Counted from the first letter of the stretch, positions 21,406 to 30,848 are shown. The stretch: DNA of 45,503 nt from Chloroflexota bacterium (GCA_022567135.1 JADFHP010000003.1:1-45503), one strand, 5' to 3'. Program-made: numbers and translations. The notes: a model not told the origin generated them from the letters alone.

Positions 21406-22503
21406 GTGTTAGAGATCGAGATGAGGTTAAGAAGCGCGCCGCAGGGGATTGCGATGCGCCCGGGGAAGCCAATGCCTGCGACCGCGTTCCAGCAAGTTGA
21501 GCGTGAACTGCTCAACATCGTCCAGTCCGATTTTCCTCTCGTCGAAGAACCGTTCAAAGCCATAGGTGAGCGGCTGGAACTTCCCGAAGCAGAAGTGATC
21601 GAGCTGATTGGCGACCTGAAGCAGAAGAACGTCATCAGGCAGATCAGCGCCATCTTCGACACCCGCCGCCTCGGCTACAAGACATCCCTCGTAGCAATGC
21701 GGTTTTCTGACGACGAGTTGGACGCCGGAGCGCACAAGATCAACGAGCATCCCGGCGTTAGCCACAACTACGGCCGCACGGGCCACTTCAACCTCTGGTT
21801 CACGCTCGCCGTCCCCCCCGATGAGTCCCTTGAAGACTCCATCGACCAGATGGGGCGGGATAGCGGCGCCGAGAGCTGGCGGCTCTTGCCGACGAAACAG
21901 TTCTTCAAGATCGGCGTCAACTTCGACATGGTGAACCAGAAGAGCAACGCAAAAACCAATTTCCTGGATACCGGGAGCTCTGGCGACTCCACCGATTCTA
22001 AATTTGAGATCGACCCGGATTGGAATACCGCCCAGGAACTTTCGGATCAGGACATCGCAGTAATACGGGAACTACAGGAAGACCTGGAACTCGTCAGCCG
22101 TCCGTTCGATGCGATGGCCAAGCGTCTGGGCATGTCTGTTTCTGAACTCTTCGCATACGCCGGCAACATGGTCGCCCGCAAACTGATGCGTCGCTTCAGC
22201 GCAGTCCTCCACCACCGGCGCGCCGGGTTCTCAGCCAACGCCATGGTCGTGTGGCGCGTGCCGGAGGAACGTGCGGAGGAAGTCGGCCTGATGATGGCGA
22301 GTTCCTTACATGTCACGCACTGCTACGAGCGCCCAACATACGATGACTGGCCTTACAGCCACTACACGATGATCCATGCTGCGACCGAAGAAGAGTGCGA
22401 GGTGATCGCAGAAGAGATCGCCGAGATGACAAACATCACCGATCGGCAACTCGTCTACAGCACCCGCGAGTACAAGAAAACCCGCGTCCGTTATTTCGTA
22501 TAG
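21406..22503 (+). CDS. ahbAB: fused AhbA-AhbB-like siroheme decarboxylase (double Lrp/AsnC-type protein)
   Basis: Up to 365 residues with two tandem AsnC/Lrp-like halves. The first spans about 25-180, with winged-helix VERELLNIVQSDFPLV and IRQISAIFDTRRLGYKTSL. The second spans about 210-365, with SDQDIAVIRELQEDLELV, then LMRRFSAVLHHRRAGFSANAM. These two histidine/arginine-rich blocks match AhbA and AhbB, which convert siroheme to 12,18-didecarboxysiroheme in the siroheme-dependent heme pathway. In most organisms these are two proteins; here they are fused through a Gly/Ser linker (TGSSGDSTDS). Start uncertain: GTG 21406, or ATGs at 21421, 21454 and 21472. Its genes of siroheme synthesis follow directly, favouring an enzyme over a transcription regulator. 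Confidence 0.82.
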   Translation: MLEIEMRLRSAPQGIAMRPGKPMPATAFQQVERELLNIVQSDFPLVEEPFKAIGERLELPEAEVIELIGDLKQKNVIRQISAIFDTRRLGYKTSLVAMRFSDDELDAGAHKINEHPGVSHNYGRTGHFNLWFTLAVPPDESLEDSIDQMGRDSGAESWRLLPTKQFFKIGVNFDMVNQKSNAKTNFLDTGSSGDSTDSKFEIDPDWNTAQELSDQDIAVIRELQEDLELVSRPFDAMAKRLGMSVSELFAYAGNMVARKLMRRFSAVLHHRRAGFSANAMVVWRVPEERAEEVGLMMASSLHVTHCYERPTYDDWPYSHYTMIHAATEEECEVIAEEIAEMTNITDRQLVYSTREYKKTRVRYFV

Positions 22504-23248: not shown

Positions 23249-24193
23249 ATGCCCGCAAATACCAGCGCAACAGTTCGCGTCGGCACCCGGGGCAGCGCGC
23301 TCGCGCTGCGCCAGGCCGGGATGCTGGTAGACGCGCTCGCTGAAATCCACGCCCGCGTCCGATTCGAGATCGTCGAAATTTCGAGCCGCGGCGACGCCGA
23401 TCGCGATTCGGATCTCACTCAACTTGGCGTCGGCGTGTTCGTGAAGGCCCTCGAAGACGCCCTTGAAGATGACCGCGTAGATCTCGCGATTCACAGTCTG
23501 AAGGACATGCCCAGCGTCATCCCGCCCGGATTCGAGCTGGCGGCCGTCACCGTCCGTGAAGACCCGCGTGATGCACTTGTCAGCCGGTGGAACTCCCCGT
23601 TCGCCGACCTTCCCGAGGGCGCCCGTATCGGCACCGGCAGCCCACGCCGCAGATCCCAGCTGCTCTCGGCCAGGCCGGATCTGGACGTCTTGCCGATGCG
23701 AGGCAATGTCCCTACCCGCATTTCGAAAGCGATGGCGGGGCCGGATGGCGAATACGATGGCGCTGTGCTGGCGGCCGCGGGCCTGTCGCGGCTCGGCCGC
23801 CTCGACGAGGCCGCCGATTTTCTCGATCCGAGCGTATTCGTGCCCGCGGCCGGACAGGGGTCGCTGGCGGTCGAGATCCGGGCGGGAGACTCGGCAGCCC
23901 GGGAGGTTGCTGCAGCAGTCGCAGATGATGACGCGACCATCGCATCGTTGGCAGAGCGTGCGTTCCTCACCGAGCTGGGCGGTGGATGTTCTGTCCCGGT
24001 CGCTGCATATGGCCGCATGCGGGACGGCTCGCTCGTGCTATCGGGGTTCGTATCTGATCTGGACGGCGAGAAAGCCCTGCGCGAAACCGTCGTAGGAGAC
24101 CCCGACAGGGCTGCCGAGTTCGGCGTAGAACTGGCCAAAACGATGGCAGCCCAGGGCGCACGCGAGCTACTCGCCGAGATACCCCGTGGCTGA
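23249..24193 (+). CDS. hemC: hydroxymethylbilane synthase (porphobilinogen deaminase)
   Basis: 314 residues, normal length. VRVGTRGSALALRQAGML is the N-terminal signature, HSLKDMPS contains the catalytic Asp (about 86), and RGNVPTRISK is the substrate-binding Arg region. The dipyrromethane cofactor is attached to the Cys of GGGCSVPV (Cys 247). It links four porphobilinogens into hydroxymethylbilane in the cytoplasm. Position: 18 bases after the Met8-like gene, and its end overlaps the cobA-hemD fusion by 8 bases. Confidence 0.97.
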   Translation: MPANTSATVRVGTRGSALALRQAGMLVDALAEIHARVRFEIVEISSRGDADRDSDLTQLGVGVFVKALEDALEDDRVDLAIHSLKDMPSVIPPGFELAAVTVREDPRDALVSRWNSPFADLPEGARIGTGSPRRRSQLLSARPDLDVLPMRGNVPTRISKAMAGPDGEYDGAVLAAAGLSRLGRLDEAADFLDPSVFVPAAGQGSLAVEIRAGDSAAREVAAAVADDDATIASLAERAFLTELGGGCSVPVAAYGRMRDGSLVLSGFVSDLDGEKALRETVVGDPDRAAEFGVELAKTMAAQGARELLAEIPRG

Positions 24194-25712
24194 CCGGAAG
24201 AACAGCCGCGGAAAGGTCTCTCTCGTCGGCGCGGGTCCCGGCGACCCGGGCCTGATAACGGCCAAAGGCCTCGAGCGCCTGCGAGACGCCGACGTAGTGA
24301 TATATGACCGGCTGGCCAGCCCACGGCTGCTGGAGGAGGCCGGCCCCGACGCCGAGTTGATCGACGTCGGCAAGATTCCGGGACGCACCCGTCTCCGCCA
24401 GCCCGAGATCAACCAGTTGCTAGTCGAAAAAGCATCCGAGGGCAAGACGATATGCCGGCTGAAGGGCGGCGACCCGTTCGTGTTCGGCAGAGGCGGGGAA
24501 GAGGCCCTGGCCCTGGCTCAGGCAGGCATCAGGTGGGAGGTCGTTCCCGGCGTCACCTCTTCCATCGCCGCGGCGGCTTACGCGGGCATTCCCATCACCC
24601 ACCGAGGCATGGCGACGTCGTTTACGGTCATAACCGGCAGCGAGGACCCGGAGAAAGAGGAGTCGCAGCTAAGCTACAAGGCCATTGCCGGGCTAACAGG
24701 GACCATCGTATTTCTGATGGGTTGGTCGACGCTTCCGGAGATAACCCGGCAGCTCGTCGCGGCGGGCATGCCGTCCGACATCCCCTGCGCGCTAGTGCAA
24801 TGGGGCACCACGGCCTCGCAGAGAACGGTGGCTGGGCCTCTATCGGACATCGCGCACATGGCCGAGGAAGCGGGCCTCTCTAACCCTGCTGCGTTCGTCG
24901 TTGGCGAAGTGACAAGCCTGAGGGACGAACTCGGCTGGTTCGATAACCGCCCGCTGTTCGGCAAAAAGGTGCTCGTCACCCGGACGCGCAGCCAGGCCAG
25001 CCGCCTTCGCTCACTACTTGAGGAGAGCGGCGCAGAGTGCGTGGAGTTCCCCGCCATATCAATCGCTCCCCTCGAAGACTCGTCACAACTCGATGCGGCG
25101 GTTGCGAACCTCGGACGCTACGACTGGGTGGTGTTCTCCAGTTCCAACGGCGTCCGCGGCCTCGCCAGCCGACTGGAAGCCCGCGGCGGCGATGCACGCT
25201 CGTTTGCAGGTGTGAAGGTGGCGGCGATTGGCCCGGCCACCGGCGAGACTGTAAAAGCCGAACTCGGCATCTCGGCCGATCTCGTCCCGGACGACTACGT
25301 GTCGGAGGCCATGGTCGATGCGCTTTCCGGGGAAGGCATCAAGGGAAAGAAAATCCTGGCCATCCGGTCAGACCTGGGTCGAGACGCGCTGGAGAGCGGG
25401 CTCGCCGTAGCCGGCGCGCAGGTGGACGCCATAGTCGGCTACGAGACGAAGGTGCCCGAAGACTCAGCTGAAAAAGCCGCGGCCGCATTTGACGCGGGCA
25501 TCGACATCACGACGTTCACCAGCTCGTCCGGCGTCGATAATCTCGTCGATCTGCTCGGAGGCGATACGTCCCGCATCAACGATACAGTTGTAGCGTGCAT
25601 GGGGCCGATTACGGCCGAGCGGGCGGAAGAACGGGGCGTCCGAGTGGATGTCATCTCCCCGGAGCGGACCATGGAGGCGCTCGTGGAGTCAATCGTGGAG
25701 CACCTGTCGTGA
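24186..25712 (+). CDS. cobA-hemD: fused uroporphyrinogen-III C-methyltransferase / uroporphyrinogen-III synthase
   Basis: 508 residues carrying two enzymes. Residues about 10-250 are a SUMT/CobA domain: VSLVGAGPGDPGLITAKGLE, VIYDRLASP, CRLKGGDPFVFGRGGEE, VVPGVTSSIAAAAYAGIP and TGTIVFLMGW. It methylates uroporphyrinogen III twice to precorrin-2. Residues about 260-508 are HemD: KKVLVTRTRSQASRLRSLLE, VFSSSNGVRGL, AIGPATGETVKAELG and FTSSSGVDNLVDLL. It cyclises hydroxymethylbilane to uroporphyrinogen III. GTG start overlaps the hemC stop; the stop overlaps hemB by 4 bases (GTGA). Such fusions are known in several bacteria. Confidence 0.96.
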   Translation: MADRKNSRGKVSLVGAGPGDPGLITAKGLERLRDADVVIYDRLASPRLLEEAGPDAELIDVGKIPGRTRLRQPEINQLLVEKASEGKTICRLKGGDPFVFGRGGEEALALAQAGIRWEVVPGVTSSIAAAAYAGIPITHRGMATSFTVITGSEDPEKEESQLSYKAIAGLTGTIVFLMGWSTLPEITRQLVAAGMPSDIPCALVQWGTTASQRTVAGPLSDIAHMAEEAGLSNPAAFVVGEVTSLRDELGWFDNRPLFGKKVLVTRTRSQASRLRSLLEESGAECVEFPAISIAPLEDSSQLDAAVANLGRYDWVVFSSSNGVRGLASRLEARGGDARSFAGVKVAAIGPATGETVKAELGISADLVPDDYVSEAMVDALSGEGIKGKKILAIRSDLGRDALESGLAVAGAQVDAIVGYETKVPEDSAEKAAAAFDAGIDITTFTSSSGVDNLVDLLGGDTSRINDTVVACMGPITAERAEERGVRVDVISPERTMEALVESIVEHLS

Positions 25713-26704
25713 CACCGGCCGATCGTCTGGAGAACTTCTATCGCGGACGCCGGAACCGCCATACGGCCGCGCTGCGCAGCATGGTGCGCGAGACCCGGCT
25801 CTCGGTAGACTCGTTCATGTACCCGATGTTCGTCACCCACGGCACGAACGTCCGGCGGCCCATCGAGCCGATGCCCGGCATTTTCCAGCTGTCCATCGAT
25901 CAACTTGAGGCTGAAGTCAACGAGGTCGTGGACCTTGGGATTCGTTCGGTGCTCCTGTTCGGCATTCCCGCCGACAAGGACGCACGCGGCACGGGCGGCT
26001 ATGCCGAGGACGGCATCGTCCAGGAAGCCACTCGCGCCATTAAGGCGGCCCAGCCCGGCCTTCTCGTCGCCACGGATGTCTGCCTCTGCGAATACACGGA
26101 CCACGGCCACTGCGGCATCCTGCTGGATGACGGCTCGGTCGATAACGACGCCACCCTGGAGTTGCTTGCGCAGACTGCGGTGAGTCATGTCGAGGCAGGC
26201 GCAGACATCGTCGCGCCGTCGGCGATGATGGACGGCCAGGTAGCCGCTATCCGCCAGTCCCTCGATCTTGGCGGCCACGAGTCGACAACGCTACTCGCCT
26301 ACGCCGCCAAGTATGCGTCTGCCTTCTTCGGCCCGTTTCGCATTGCCGCTGAATCTGCCCCGCAGCAGGGCGACCGGCGCTCCTACCAGATGGACCCGGC
26401 CAACGGTCGCGAGGCGATGCGGGAGATTGCCGCCGATATCGAAGAGGGCGCCGACATCGTGATGGTCAAGCCGGCCCTGGCCTACCTGGACGTGATCCAA
26501 AATGCCCGCCGCATGAGCAGCGTCCCGGTCGCCGCGTACAACGTGAGCGGAGAGTACGCCATGATCAAGGCCGCCGCCGCCAACGGCTGGCTGGACGAGA
26601 AGCAGGCGACGCTGGAGACGCTGACGGCGATCACAAGGGCCGGCGCGGACATCATCCTGACGTATCACGCCAAAGAAGCGGCCAGGTGGCTCGCCGAAAG
26701 CTGA
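25709..26704 (+). CDS. hemB: delta-aminolevulinic acid dehydratase (porphobilinogen synthase)
   Basis: 331 residues from GTG 25709; the open frame runs further upstream but only inside hemD. Zinc-type metal-binding segment DVCLCEYTDHGHCGIL is present. Schiff-base lysines are expected in AYAAKYASAFFGPFR and in the MVKPALAYLDVI motif; YQMDPANGREAM is the conserved substrate loop. It condenses two aminolevulinates into porphobilinogen. Last gene of the tetrapyrrole run; hemA/hemL are not in the window. The 81-base convergent gap to the next gene contains no clear terminator. Confidence 0.97.
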   Translation: MTPADRLENFYRGRRNRHTAALRSMVRETRLSVDSFMYPMFVTHGTNVRRPIEPMPGIFQLSIDQLEAEVNEVVDLGIRSVLLFGIPADKDARGTGGYAEDGIVQEATRAIKAAQPGLLVATDVCLCEYTDHGHCGILLDDGSVDNDATLELLAQTAVSHVEAGADIVAPSAMMDGQVAAIRQSLDLGGHESTTLLAYAAKYASAFFGPFRIAAESAPQQGDRRSYQMDPANGREAMREIAADIEEGADIVMVKPALAYLDVIQNARRMSSVPVAAYNVSGEYAMIKAAAANGWLDEKQATLETLTAITRAGADIILTYHAKEAARWLAES

Positions 26705-27357: not shown

Positions 27358-27789
27358 ATGTCACTCTTCGGAAACGTCATCAGGCTGGCAGACCGCGTGT
27401 TTCCGACGACCGAGGCGCACGCGCACTGCGATATTCCATGCGGCATCTACGACCCGCACGCCGCGCTGGAAGCAGCGCAGACAGTCATCAGAATGACCGA
27501 GTTGATTCAGGAGCTCGACCTGAACGACCCGGCATCCCACCACGCCCTCGCTCGTTATACCAACACCAAGGAAGAGCACGGTAAGAAGGCCAAGGACGAC
27601 CTTCTCATCATATGGACGGACTACTTCAAGCCCGAGCACCTGGAAAAGTACCCGGACCTGCACACGCTCGTCTGGGATGCCTGCAAGTTGGGCTCAAAGG
27701 CCAAGCAGAACGTGGACATGGACGCGGCGGTTGCCTTCAAAGCCGCCATCCAGAAGGTAGGAGACATCTTCTGGGAGACCAAGCAGTAA
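27358..27789 (+). CDS. sodN: nickel-dependent superoxide dismutase precursor
   Basis: 143 residues. The nickel hook HCDIPCGIYDP begins at residue 23, directly after a 22-residue propeptide ending TTEAHA. Cleavage between A22 and H23 would give mature His1, Cys2 and Cys6, the nickel ligands. The rest forms the four-helix bundle with LARYTNTKEEHGKKAKDDLL typical of NiSOD. It dismutates superoxide to oxygen and hydrogen peroxide as a cytoplasmic hexamer. AGGAG lies before ATG. A terminator follows, so it is monocistronic, facing away from its maturation protease. Confidence 0.97.
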   Translation: MSLFGNVIRLADRVFPTTEAHAHCDIPCGIYDPHAALEAAQTVIRMTELIQELDLNDPASHHALARYTNTKEEHGKKAKDDLLIIWTDYFKPEHLEKYPDLHTLVWDACKLGSKAKQNVDMDAAVAFKAAIQKVGDIFWETKQ

Positions 27790-27817: not shown

Positions 27818-27852
27818 AACGGTCCGGACACTCCATTCGGGCCGTTTTTTTT
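27818..27852 (+). terminator. rho-independent terminator after sodN
   Basis: AACGGTCCG (27818-27826) pairs with CGGGCCGTT (27838-27846) with a single G-T wobble, and runs into eight T. A second small hairpin, ACCCC-ATA-GGGGT, precedes it (27801-27813). Confidence 0.85.
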
Positions 27853-28008
27853 GCAGATTCCGCTCGTGAAGCCTCCCGACCCCTATTACCGGTATCGGGC
27901 ATCTAATTTCCCGGGTGCACGATCAGGGCACGTGAATCGACGGCGTATGCAGCGTGCGTAGTAATGTTCTGTTAGCGACCGGGCGCAACACAACAACACA
28001 GGAGACGT

Positions 28009-29517
28009 ATGGCTCAGGCTAAAGAGCGGAGTTCTATCGGGCCTCGAAAGGCGCCGAAACGCAAGACATCGGACTCGATCTTCTACGAGTTGACACGGAG
28101 CATGTGCCCCGTCTGCAAAGTGATCATCGACGCCGAGATCCATCTCAAAGATGGACAGGTCATCATGCGCAAGCGCTGCTCGGAGCACGGCCGTTTCGAA
28201 GTCCTCATCTCCCCCGACGCCGATGGCTACCTTGACCAGCTTCGCTATAACAAGCCGGGCGATATTCCACTCGAGTTCTCGACCGAGGTCAAGGACGGCT
28301 GCCCGTACGATTGCGGCCTCTGCCCCGAACACAAGCAGCACGCCTGCCTGGTGATCATCGAGGTCAACACCGGCTGCAACATGGCATGCCCCACCTGCTT
28401 CATGGATGCCGGGACCGGCTACAACCTTCGGCCGGATGAAGTCGAGACGATGCTCGACACGTTCGTCCGCACCGAGGGCGACCCCGAGGTGGTCCAGTTC
28501 TCGGGTGGGGAGCCGACGATTCATCCGCAACTCCTGGACTTCATAAAAATGGCCCAGGAGAAGGGCATCCGGCATGTCATGGTCAACACCAACGGCAGGC
28601 GGCTGGTGGAAGACCCTGAGTGGGCGGCTGAGTTCTGCGCCCTCAATCCGATGGTGTACCTGCAGTTCGACGGCTTTGAGGAAGAGACGTATCTGAAGCT
28701 GCGCGGCGAGTCGCTGCTCGACGAGAAGATGGCCGCGCTCGAGGTGCTCCAGAAGCACAACATCAACACAATCCTCACTGCAACTGTCGAACGAGACGTG
28801 AACGAGCACGAGATCCCCGCCATAATCAAATTCGGTTTCAAGCACCCGGCGGTACGCGGCATCATGCTCCAGCCGGTGTTCCATACCGGCCGCCACCTCG
28901 AGTACCTCGACCCGATGAACCGGGTCACCATTCCCGAGCTTGTCCAGCGCATCGACGATGGCATGGACGGCCAGATCGTGAAGTCCGATTTCGTGCCAGT
29001 GCCCTGCTGCCACCCCTCCTGCCAGTCCATCGCCTACGCCTATATCGAAGGCGAAGAGGTGACGCCACTGGCCCGCATCATCGATGTGGACGAGTATCTC
29101 GACTACATCACCAACCGGGTCTGGCCGGACGCCGAGGGCGAAATCCGAGATGCCCTCGCAGGCATGTGGTCGTCATCCGCCGCTCCCGGGAGCGACACCA
29201 TGGCCGACGATTTCGTGTGCGCCACATGCAACGTCGACTTCCGCATTCCCGACAACGTCGCGAAACACATCTTCGCAATCACGATCAAAGATTTTCAGGA
29301 CCCGTACACATTCGATATCAAAAAGCTGATGAAATGCTGCGTGGAAATCGCCACGCCCGATGGCCGGCTGATTCCGTTCTGCGCCTATAACACCGTGGGC
29401 TATCGCGAGGACGTGAAGAAGGAAATCATGATGTCCAGGGCGCGTGAGCGGCTCGAGCGCCGCGCCAACGGGTCCTCTGCGAAAGAAGCCGCCGCATCAT
29501 CTGGAGACGCAGATTAG
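28009..29517 (+). CDS. Tes-like (tetraether lipid synthase family) radical SAM protein
   Basis: 502 residues. The radical SAM motif is CNMACPTC at 123-130 (C123, C127, C130), then FSGGEPTIHP with GGE at 166-168. Additional cysteines are arranged as in archaeal Tes: CPVC near the N-terminus (C33, C36), CSEHGRF (C57), a second CxxxCxxC (CPYDCGLC, C98/C102/C105), then C-terminal CCHPSC (333-338), CATC (404-407), KCC (443-444) and IPFC (458). The block GCPYDCGLCPEHKQHACL is especially Tes-like. Tes couples two unactivated lipid tails in archaeal tetraether lipids; a comparable C-C coupling or tail alkylation in this bacterium is inference. AGGAG precedes ATG. The next gene starts at the base after its stop. 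Confidence 0.85.
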   Translation: MAQAKERSSIGPRKAPKRKTSDSIFYELTRSMCPVCKVIIDAEIHLKDGQVIMRKRCSEHGRFEVLISPDADGYLDQLRYNKPGDIPLEFSTEVKDGCPYDCGLCPEHKQHACLVIIEVNTGCNMACPTCFMDAGTGYNLRPDEVETMLDTFVRTEGDPEVVQFSGGEPTIHPQLLDFIKMAQEKGIRHVMVNTNGRRLVEDPEWAAEFCALNPMVYLQFDGFEEETYLKLRGESLLDEKMAALEVLQKHNINTILTATVERDVNEHEIPAIIKFGFKHPAVRGIMLQPVFHTGRHLEYLDPMNRVTIPELVQRIDDGMDGQIVKSDFVPVPCCHPSCQSIAYAYIEGEEVTPLARIIDVDEYLDYITNRVWPDAEGEIRDALAGMWSSSAAPGSDTMADDFVCATCNVDFRIPDNVAKHIFAITIKDFQDPYTFDIKKLMKCCVEIATPDGRLIPFCAYNTVGYREDVKKEIMMSRARERLERRANGSSAKEAAASSGDAD

Positions 29518-30057
29518 ATGGCCGTAATCCCGATCAAAATCAAACCCGAGAAGATTCATATCATCTCTGACCGGAGACTCGCGTTCCAGGTCATCACCGC
29601 GTTCGGCGTGTCGGCGAGCGACAACGGCCAGAGCAGCCGCGTCCTAAAAGAAGAAGGCGACCGCAAGCTCGTGGAGTTCGTGACCCCCCTGAAACTTGGA
29701 TTTGGCCTGAGCCGCAACTGGGTCACGAACGAATGGGTCGAAATGTCGGAGCCCAACGAGATCACATTCAACCTCGTCCCGGGCAAGGGCCCCATCACCG
29801 GCGGCCTCAAACTCCTCAGTGATCGCTTCGTCTTCGAAGTTGTCGACAACTGCACCGATCTCACCTACGAGAGCACCTTCGGAATCAGGTGGTCGATCTT
29901 CGGCTGGGTCTTCGGCAAGGTCTTCATCGAGCGTTACCTGAGAAAGCATATGCGTGACCACCTTCTCGAAGTGAAACCGGTAATCGAAGCCCGCGCAGCC
30001 CGAAGCCGCGTCTACGCCCCGTGCGAGCATGGCAACGCCCAGCGCGAAACGAAGTGA
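29518..30057 (+). CDS. SRPBCC/polyketide-cyclase-like protein
   Basis: 179 residues. ATG follows the radical SAM stop codon with no gap. No catalytic motif is visible. The beta-rich pattern (VISDRRLAFQVITAFGVS-like helix-grip start, then alternating strands RKLVEFVTPL, EITFNLVPG, RFVFEVVDN, LTYESTFGIR) resembles START/SRPBCC folds that bind hydrophobic ligands. The C-terminal FIERYLRKHMRDHLLEVKP is a long helix, as the closing helix of that fold. It could hold or present a lipid substrate to its neighbours. Family assignment is by pattern only. Confidence 0.65.
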   Translation: MAVIPIKIKPEKIHIISDRRLAFQVITAFGVSASDNGQSSRVLKEEGDRKLVEFVTPLKLGFGLSRNWVTNEWVEMSEPNEITFNLVPGKGPITGGLKLLSDRFVFEVVDNCTDLTYESTFGIRWSIFGWVFGKVFIERYLRKHMRDHLLEVKPVIEARAARSRVYAPCEHGNAQRETK

Positions 30058-30848
30058 CGACGCACACGACGGCTGAGATCAACGCCTGCTGTGCGGACGC
30101 GTATAGCCACCCTGCGGCCCGGTTCTTGCTCGGCGAATCCCTCCACCCCGGCGGACTCGACCTGACCGCCGATCTTGCGCGCCGCATGGGGCTATCGGCG
30201 AATGACCGCGTGCTTGACGCCGGCTGCGGCCCCGGCGCGACCGCCATGTTCCTCGCCGAAACCCTCGGCTGCCACGTGACCGGCGTCACGCTGGAAGACG
30301 GTGCCGTCACCGAGCTCGATCACCGCGCGGCAGAGGTCGGACTGGCCGACCGTATCTCAGTGATTCGCGGCGATATATCTGACATCGATCTGCCGCAGGC
30401 GGGATTCGATGCCGCCGTGGCCGAATGCGTGGTGTCGATATTCGCCCGCAAAGCAGAGGCCCTGTCCCGGATTCACGACGCTCTGAGGCCGGGCGGCACG
30501 CTCGGTCTAACTGATGTCACAGTCAACGGCTCGCTCCCGAAGGCCCTTCAGGGGATATTCGCCGTGGCCGGATGCGTGGGCAACGCCGTTTCGCTGGAAG
30601 AGTACGCCTCTCTCATTGAGAACGCCGGATTCACGGTCACCGAATGCACTCCGCTCCCCGATATCGCGAGAGACTTTTTGAAGGGCATCCGCAAGAAGAT
30701 GATGTTCGCCGAAATCGGCGCCAAACTCGGCAAGATCCCGATCAGCGTCGAGTCAGTGAAGATGGCAAAGGGCGTCCTCAAAGAGACGGAGGAGCTGGTC
30801 GAGTCTGGGACCCTCGGCTACGGCATGATCGTCGCAGAGCGCCGGTAA
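30054..30848 (+). CDS. class I SAM-dependent methyltransferase
   Basis: About 264 residues from GTG 30054, which overlaps the previous stop (GTGA). The SAM-binding motif I is VLDAGCGPGATAMFLAE; motif II-like acidic loop VTGVTLEDGAV; motif IV region AVAECVVSIF; then LRPGGTLGLTDVTVNG, typical of UbiE/Coq5-type enzymes. A Cys-rich N-terminus (EINACCADAYSHPAARFLLGE) precedes the fold. The substrate is not evident; a lipid or lipid-derived quinone is possible from context. Coupled to the SRPBCC-like gene. Confidence 0.88.
   Translation: MTTHTTAEINACCADAYSHPAARFLLGESLHPGGLDLTADLARRMGLSANDRVLDAGCGPGATAMFLAETLGCHVTGVTLEDGAVTELDHRAAEVGLADRISVIRGDISDIDLPQAGFDAAVAECVVSIFARKAEALSRIHDALRPGGTLGLTDVTVNGSLPKALQGIFAVAGCVGNAVSLEEYASLIENAGFTVTECTPLPDIARDFLKGIRKKMMFAEIGAKLGKIPISVESVKMAKGVLKETEELVESGTLGYGMIVAERR

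Follow-up and report, generated by a model that had tools for sequence, protein, structure and literature searches.

We analyzed a gene locus in a 45,503-nucleotide stretch of DNA from an uncultured Chloroflexota bacterium (GCA_022567135.1, JADFHP010000003.1:1-45503; the whole stretch is called the window), in which genes for a 502-residue radical S-adenosylmethionine (SAM) protein (rSAM), an SRPBCC protein, and a class I SAM methyltransferase were read as an operon. Judged by its sequence, the rSAM family is a widespread third branch of the Tes/TrsS superfamily, separate from the archaeal tetraether lipid synthase Tes. Moreover, a methyltransferase and a paralogue of the prolipoprotein diacylglyceryl transferase Lgt are near-obligate, mutually exclusive partners of rSAM, and they were swapped at least three times. 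An earlier note on this DNA had described the three-gene layout, the protein length, the cysteine motifs, the SRPBCC start after the rSAM stop, and the GTGA coupling of the third gene, all as found here.

Relationship of the radical SAM protein to Tes and TrsS

The rSAM protein matched PF04055 and the HMPTM zinc ribbon PF23545 in Pfam, and its best match among solved sequences was Tes of M. jannaschii (E 3.9e-83). Its AlphaFold2 model had a mean predicted local distance difference test (pLDDT) score of 83.9, with residues 369-375 and 402-414, the latter including C404 and C407, poorly predicted. The best solved match of the model was again Tes (7TOM; Z 46.0, 2.7 Å, 426 aligned residues, 35% identity), followed by the MoaA family at Z 21; thus, the likeness to Tes is far beyond chance. 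Placement among unrelated SPASM or cofactor-maturation enzymes, the outcome that the earlier note had set against its own proposal, was rejected, as the MoaA, viperin, and SPASM folds reached only Z 15-21. In common with Tes (MJ0619; GDGT-MAS; NF045702; PDB 7TOL and 7TOM), rSAM has the overall fold, the rubredoxin Cx2Cx20Cx2H motif, the [4Fe-4S]N CxxxCxxC motif plus His, the radical SAM CxxxCxxC motif, three C-terminal cysteines, and the Gln and Arg of the SAM site, to which Q288 and R295 align. The spacing of its rubredoxin-like motif is identical to that of Tes, C9x2C12x20C33x2H36; the rubredoxin ligands, the other cluster ligands, and the labile Met439 of Tes were described by Lloyd et al. 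(PMC9433317). The Tes-like cysteine anatomy recognized in the earlier note therefore stood, together with a Tes-like fold.

Membership of Tes itself did not stand, as the cut-off, the clade, the Met439/Tyr459 positions, and the partner pattern all differed. The protein scored 337.7 bits against the Tes family NF045702 (cut-off 450) and 345.3 bits against the TrsS family NF045646 (cut-off 490), so that by the curated cut-offs it is neither. A careful tree of 53 rows grouped the five Tes rows, MJ0619 among them, in one clade (support 100/99) and placed the window rSAM inside a separate bacterial clade of 33 methyltransferase- and Lgt-linked rows (99/95); TrsS and the haloarchaeal rows were long branches near Tes, with their exact place unsure. 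A larger quick tree agreed with this one. Met439 and Tyr459 are completely conserved in 1,000 archaeal Tes homologues (PMC9433317), and the four archaeal Tes rows in our alignment had M and Y there (the PDB chain numbering is offset by 20 from that of PMC9433317); the corresponding residues are K427 and I447 in the window rSAM, and Q/K/R and I/F/V/E across its family. In addition, an insert of about 22 residues between the positions of P332 and C338 in Tes is missing from rSAM, and the family has four extra cysteines compared with Tes: C113, C333, C404, and C407 were present in 100, 104, 95, and 103 of the 105 rows of the family alignment, respectively. Tes has one Fe plus three [Fe4S4] clusters, and the extra cysteines would predict an additional centre. 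C444 did not discriminate: the four archaeal rows had G or V at this position, but M. jannaschii Tes has Cys. The N-terminal [4Fe-4S] cysteines have been lost, and the C-terminal set kept, in some Chloroflexota members and in the haloarchaeal and mycobacterial ones (L099, L101-L104, L106, L219-L222, and L225).

Partner genes and organization of the locus

The partner genes were surveyed in 110 distinct loci, comprising the window, samples from the phylum, and the 80 best named matches, all sampled by similarity to the window; most were contigs of metagenome-assembled genomes with mechanically called open reading frames (ORFs), and the gene distances are approximate. A methyltransferase gene was found downstream on the same strand in 73 loci from several phyla, often with a 4 bp overlap, and an Lgt-like gene was nearby in 26, whereas no locus had both. 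The methyltransferase counts were redone with hidden Markov models after the neighbour clusters c65, c69, and c49 had been rejected as spurious antisense ORFs. Neither partner was present in the four archaeal Tes loci (0/4) or in seven further loci. Four of these seven stopped at the contig end or close to it, one was a true TrsS with its methyltransferase upstream, L105 had just 954 bases downstream, and L151 may be a real exception. The Lgt label required at least three changes on starred branches of the tree; for example, L140 and L168 were nested beside the methyltransferase-linked L123.

In all 12 scored genomes that have an Lgt-linked rSAM (G373, G391, G123, G325, G151, G143, G406, G065, G343, G099, G080, and G299), the rSAM-linked Lgt scored below the housekeeping Lgt, and of eight genomes with the methyltransferase type only, seven had a single Lgt and G418 had two. 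Loss of Lgt His103 was dropped as a mark of the rSAM-linked paralogues, since housekeeping Lgt proteins of Chloroflexota also lack it. At L093, L096, and L178, the Lgt-linked rSAM gene was followed by a gene for a CTCTAVP-containing membrane protein, which by eye resembled ArsP-type permeases. The partner rule also held on plasmids: rSAM and methyltransferase genes occurred together in Mycolicibacterium vanbaalenii and on five haloarchaeal plasmids, and Mycobacterium branderi and M. avium paired rSAM with a member of the Lgt family. No fusion of rSAM with a methyltransferase was found among the aligned family proteins, and a literature search in a limited collection found no account of either pairing. 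The Persicobacter match H2 was without annotation.

That rSAM acts alone and its neighbours merely hitch-hike is hardly credible. The SRPBCC gene is indeed sporadic, and L151 is one candidate for partner loss with intact flanks; however, a methyltransferase directly downstream in two-thirds of the loci, across phyla and often overlapping, and the presence of the pair on haloarchaeal plasmids and a Mycolicibacterium plasmid argue against accident. The conserved methyltransferase partner of the earlier note was thus borne out, and the lack of conserved neighbours that would have spoken against it was not observed. Its SRPBCC partner fared less evenly. The protein had no Pfam or NCBIfam match, but its AlphaFold2 model (mean pLDDT 80.4) matched aromatase/cyclase and PR-10 folds in Foldseek (E down to 6.6e-7, TM normalized by query up to 0.68), and we are confident that the predicted structure, an antiparallel sheet around a long C-terminal helix, is a genuine helix-grip fold. 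As a partner it is only occasional, being present in 14 loci; it lies between the other two genes within the window's clade and at other nearby positions outside it.

The features of the locus are listed in table 1. For the methyltransferase, GTG 30054 is the best start, because relatives begin close to this position; the mechanical ORF begins at GTG 30021. A nickel superoxide dismutase gene (27358-27789) lies directly upstream of the operon, a position kept only in close relatives of the window. A hairpin with a T run was seen by eye near 27818-27855, between this gene and the operon; an automatic terminator scan reported none there, and a sigma-70 scan detected no promoter-like site at the operon. 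The window also carries hopanoid genes (Shc, HpnH, HpnA-like, HpnC, HpnD, and HpnE), to which the earlier note had linked the operon. This link was rejected, since these genes are 12-22 kb upstream and are absent from the recurrent neighbours of the relatives' loci. Elsewhere in the window, a single gene at 21406-22503 encodes the siroheme decarboxylase subunits AhbA and AhbB as a fusion, and heme-pathway genes lie nearby at 23249-26704.

Table 1. Features of the rSAM locus in window coordinates; methyltransferase residues are numbered from the ORF start at 30021
Feature	Coordinates	Strand	Remark
Tes/TrsS-superfamily radical SAM protein (rSAM), 502 aa	28009..29517	+	TAG stop
Rubredoxin-like/zinc-ribbon motif C33x2C36x20C57x2H60 (C33-P-V-C36)	28081..28212	+	PF23545 over residues 25-68
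N-terminal auxiliary cluster motif C98xxxC102xxC105, with H108	28300..28323	+	Equivalent of Tes [4Fe-4S]N
Radical SAM motif C123xxxC127xxC130	28375..28398	+	
C333C334-x3-C338	29005..29022	+	C338 aligned to conserved Tes Cys; C333 and C334 are additions
C404xxC407	29218..29229	+	No counterpart in archaeal Tes; found in the window's family and TrsS
C443C444	29335..29340	+	C443 aligned to conserved Tes Cys
C458	29380..29382	+	Aligned to conserved Tes Cys
SRPBCC (START/Bet v 1-like, helix-grip) protein, 179 aa	29518..30057	+	Begins at first base past rSAM stop
Class I SAM methyltransferase, DVU_1556/ArsM-like group	30054..30848	+	GTG start overlaps SRPBCC TGA stop (GTGA)
Methyltransferase N-terminal CysCys C23C24	30087..30092	+	72/73 aligned rows; no row with another residue
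Methyltransferase C136	30426..30428	+	Aligned to Cys of ArsM SNCV motif; 71/73 rows, other two gapped
Methyltransferase C185	30573..30575	+	Aligned to second ArsM arsenite-binding Cys; 70/73 rows, other three gapped

Proposed chemistry and alternative readings

We tentatively propose, with less than even confidence, that rSAM and its partner form a lipid-modification unit, in which radical attack on a tail installs a soft heteroatom that the partner caps; rSAM would thus probably yield a lipid with a chemical modification and not one that spans the membrane. From its fold and conserved motifs, rSAM would cleave SAM and abstract hydrogen from a hydrophobic chain as in Tes. The C-terminal auxiliary centre, re-ligated by the extra cysteines, would then add a heteroatom to the chain, most likely cluster-derived sulfur, rather than pass the carbon on to another tail. 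In the window's operon, the ArsM-like methyltransferase would methylate the soft atom, whereas in other lineages the Lgt paralogue would transfer diacylglyceryl from phosphatidylglycerol onto it, and the SRPBCC protein of some lineages is a probable carrier of the hydrophobic substrate or product. A hydrophobic substrate is suggested by the Tes fold, the lipid-gene neighbours, and the SRPBCC protein. The soft heteroatom is suggested because the interchangeable partners come from thiol- or metalloid-alkylating families, both being families that alkylate soft nucleophiles (a thiol by Lgt, arsenic bound by Cys by ArsM), and because Tes chemistry on this cluster already passes through a lipid-sulfur bond, in an intermediate recovered as AG plus S under limiting SAM (PMC9433317). 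The partner rule with its swaps, the status of the rSAM-linked Lgt copies as paralogues, the ArsM cysteine pair kept in the methyltransferase, and the thiol-redox neighbours also speak for this reading.

The membrane-lipid unit of the earlier note was retained only in part: lipid-gene neighbours (the Lgt paralogue, PlsY, and a CDP-alcohol phosphatidyltransferase) occur at some loci, but tail-to-tail coupling as the reaction was unsupported. A bacterial C-C coupling, in which rSAM would make membrane-spanning or branched lipids and the methyltransferase would methylate elsewhere on the lipid, seems to us decidedly unlikely, although Zeng et al. (2022) suggested such coupling for bacterial Tes homologues. 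Tes is the closest solved structure, bacterial Tes homologues, including those of Chloroflexota, have been proposed for the synthesis of branched glycerol dialkyl glycerol tetraethers (brGDGTs) (PMC8941075, PMC11868695), and Acidobacteriota relatives carry the rSAM-methyltransferase pair. However, rSAM is below the Tes cut-off (338 versus 450 bits) and outside the Tes clade, the surroundings of its C-terminal cluster differ, including the missing insert before C338, and ArsM-type cysteines are unexpected for C-methylation. Moreover, Halobacteria with Tes homologues make no GDGT (Zeng et al., PMC8941075), and the plasmid-borne haloarchaeal homologues found here are methyltransferase-linked, with the extra cysteines of the family and without Met439.

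The methyltransferase was closest to the DVU_1556 family NF045667 (120.1 bits; cut-off 155) and more weakly similar to ArsM NF008823 (78 bits; cut-off 263), both scores being below the cut-offs. Alignment with ArsM proteins of the same lineage placed C136 and C185 at the active-site As(III)-binding cysteine pair of ArsM, and the cysteine pattern resembles arsenite methyltransferases rather than lipid C-methylases. The haloarchaeal methyltransferases lack the N-terminal CysCys and keep the equivalents of C136 and C185. These residues bear on an arsenolipid pathway, in which a C-As bond, or one of a similar kind, would be formed by rSAM on a lipid chain and then methylated by the methyltransferase, by analogy with ArsL/ArsM (arsinothricin) and ArsS/ArsM (arsenosugar). 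The conserved ArsM pair, the C-As bonds made by known pairs of radical SAM enzymes and ArsM (PMC8552651), and a reductase with the MerA C-terminal CysCys at three loci (L074, L085, and L148) fit such a pathway, yet we regard it as improbable: the neighbours included no ArsR, Acr3, or recurrent arsenate reductase (a single low-molecular-weight phosphatase at L221), the Lgt variant lacks an arsenic rationale, and the genome has a separate, real ArsM on another contig. An arsenic operon was rejected on this ground. A second ArsM-family gene, in the genome (G000:C103:21-674) and in two relatives (G002:C8 and G043:C8), has one in-frame TGA, which suggests a selenocysteine-containing arsenite methyltransferase.

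Among the other neighbours, PlsY was just downstream in SAR202-type loci, a CDP-alcohol phosphatidyltransferase recurred in Ktedonobacteria loci and a major facilitator superfamily protein in Acidobacteriota loci, and PEMT was among the neighbours in some lineages. FAD (flavin adenine dinucleotide) disulfide oxidoreductases recurred in 24 loci (by raw count, Pyr_redox made up 11/101 neighbour proteins), a few thioredoxin-fold, AhpC, and DsbD proteins were also among the 101, and the haloarchaeal and mycobacterial islands added DUF3179, DsrE, redoxins, AhpD-like, and CcdA proteins. DUF3179 also recurred next to the pair in haloarchaea and Thermomicrobiales. The genome G000 itself has several DUF3179 genes, four matches of which (contigs C14, C54, C132, and C105; L227, L229, L230, and L233) have one in-frame TGA each, as expected for selenoprotein forms. 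These neighbours cut both ways for a non-lipid substrate, in which the pair would act on a quinone, a hopanoid, a peptide, or the cofactor of an enzyme, much as in the TrsS/DVU_1556 system, itself poorly understood. The nearly equal TrsS and Tes scores (345 versus 338 bits), the redox-gene islands, and the one true TrsS, which is also beside a related methyltransferase and a C-GCAxxG-C-C-like protein, are consistent with it; however, the Lgt paralogue, PlsY, and the CDP-alcohol phosphatidyltransferase are independent neighbours in different lineages, and the best solved match is a lipid-binding enzyme. We consider this reading possible, if rather doubtful.

Several points weigh against the heteroatom proposal. 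S-methylation needs no ArsM-type cysteines, and the redox neighbours could reflect genomic islands. Met439 and Tyr459 were both dispensable in Tes assays; therefore, the differences at these positions mark a family and are not proof of another reaction. In addition, G406 and G299 hold both arrangements, so the Lgt- and methyltransferase-linked enzymes may differ in substrate. A more specific version, which we hold to be unlikely, is that this branch performs lipoyl-synthase-like chemistry, inserting auxiliary-cluster sulfur into a lipid tail to give a membrane thiol. The thiol would either be S-methylated or be linked by a thioether to another lipid through a dedicated Lgt paralogue, and in some lineages a flavin disulfide reductase would be paired with the system. 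If true, the products would represent sulfur lipids of a new class, or else a thiol redox cofactor anchored to a lipid.

Implications and comparison with known systems

At present, bacterial and haloarchaeal "Tes homologues" are interpreted as potential producers of membrane-spanning lipids, and environmental brGDGT producers are inferred from them (PMC8941075, PMC11868695). Our results indicate that many of these proteins belong to a family of their own, whose fixed partner is a methyltransferase or an Lgt paralogue; therefore, counts of brGDGT producers may be wrong. The partner gene, C404xxC407, and the loss of Met439/Tyr459 provide a simple handle to separate this family from Tes, and cultured carriers (Ktedonobacter, Dictyobacter, Actinopolyspora, Nocardiopsis, and Haloarcula) make the substrate question testable.

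Compared with known systems, the bacterial membrane-spanning lipid synthase Mss, considered here by description, reportedly has the Tes catalytic architecture in common (PMC13274423), and the four archaeal Tes loci surveyed, unlike those of the window's family, carry neither partner. The rSAM-linked Lgt (PF01790) retains the positions equivalent to Arg143 and Arg239 in the E. coli enzyme (PMC4728403); it is a paralogue beside a higher-scoring housekeeping Lgt and is absent from the window's operon. ArsM with its radical SAM partners ArsL and ArsS resembles the window's system both in the pairing and in the two aligned As-binding cysteines, but the window methyltransferase has an N-terminal CysCys where ArsM has the GCGNP Cys, and recurrent arsenic-regulatory or efflux neighbours are a difference between the two, being absent from the window's family. 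In the TrsS/DVU_1556 system (NF045646, NF045667), the radical SAM protein likewise stands beside a related Cys-bearing methyltransferase, with C404xxC407 and CysCys also present. The true TrsS of the phylum (543 bits against NF045646), whose locus includes the protein resembling the C-GCAxxG-C-C family, differs from the window rSAM in that it has retained Met at the Met439 position, is without C333/C334, and has its branch elsewhere in the tree. In the one locus seen, the methyltransferase is upstream, whereas that of the window's family is downstream.

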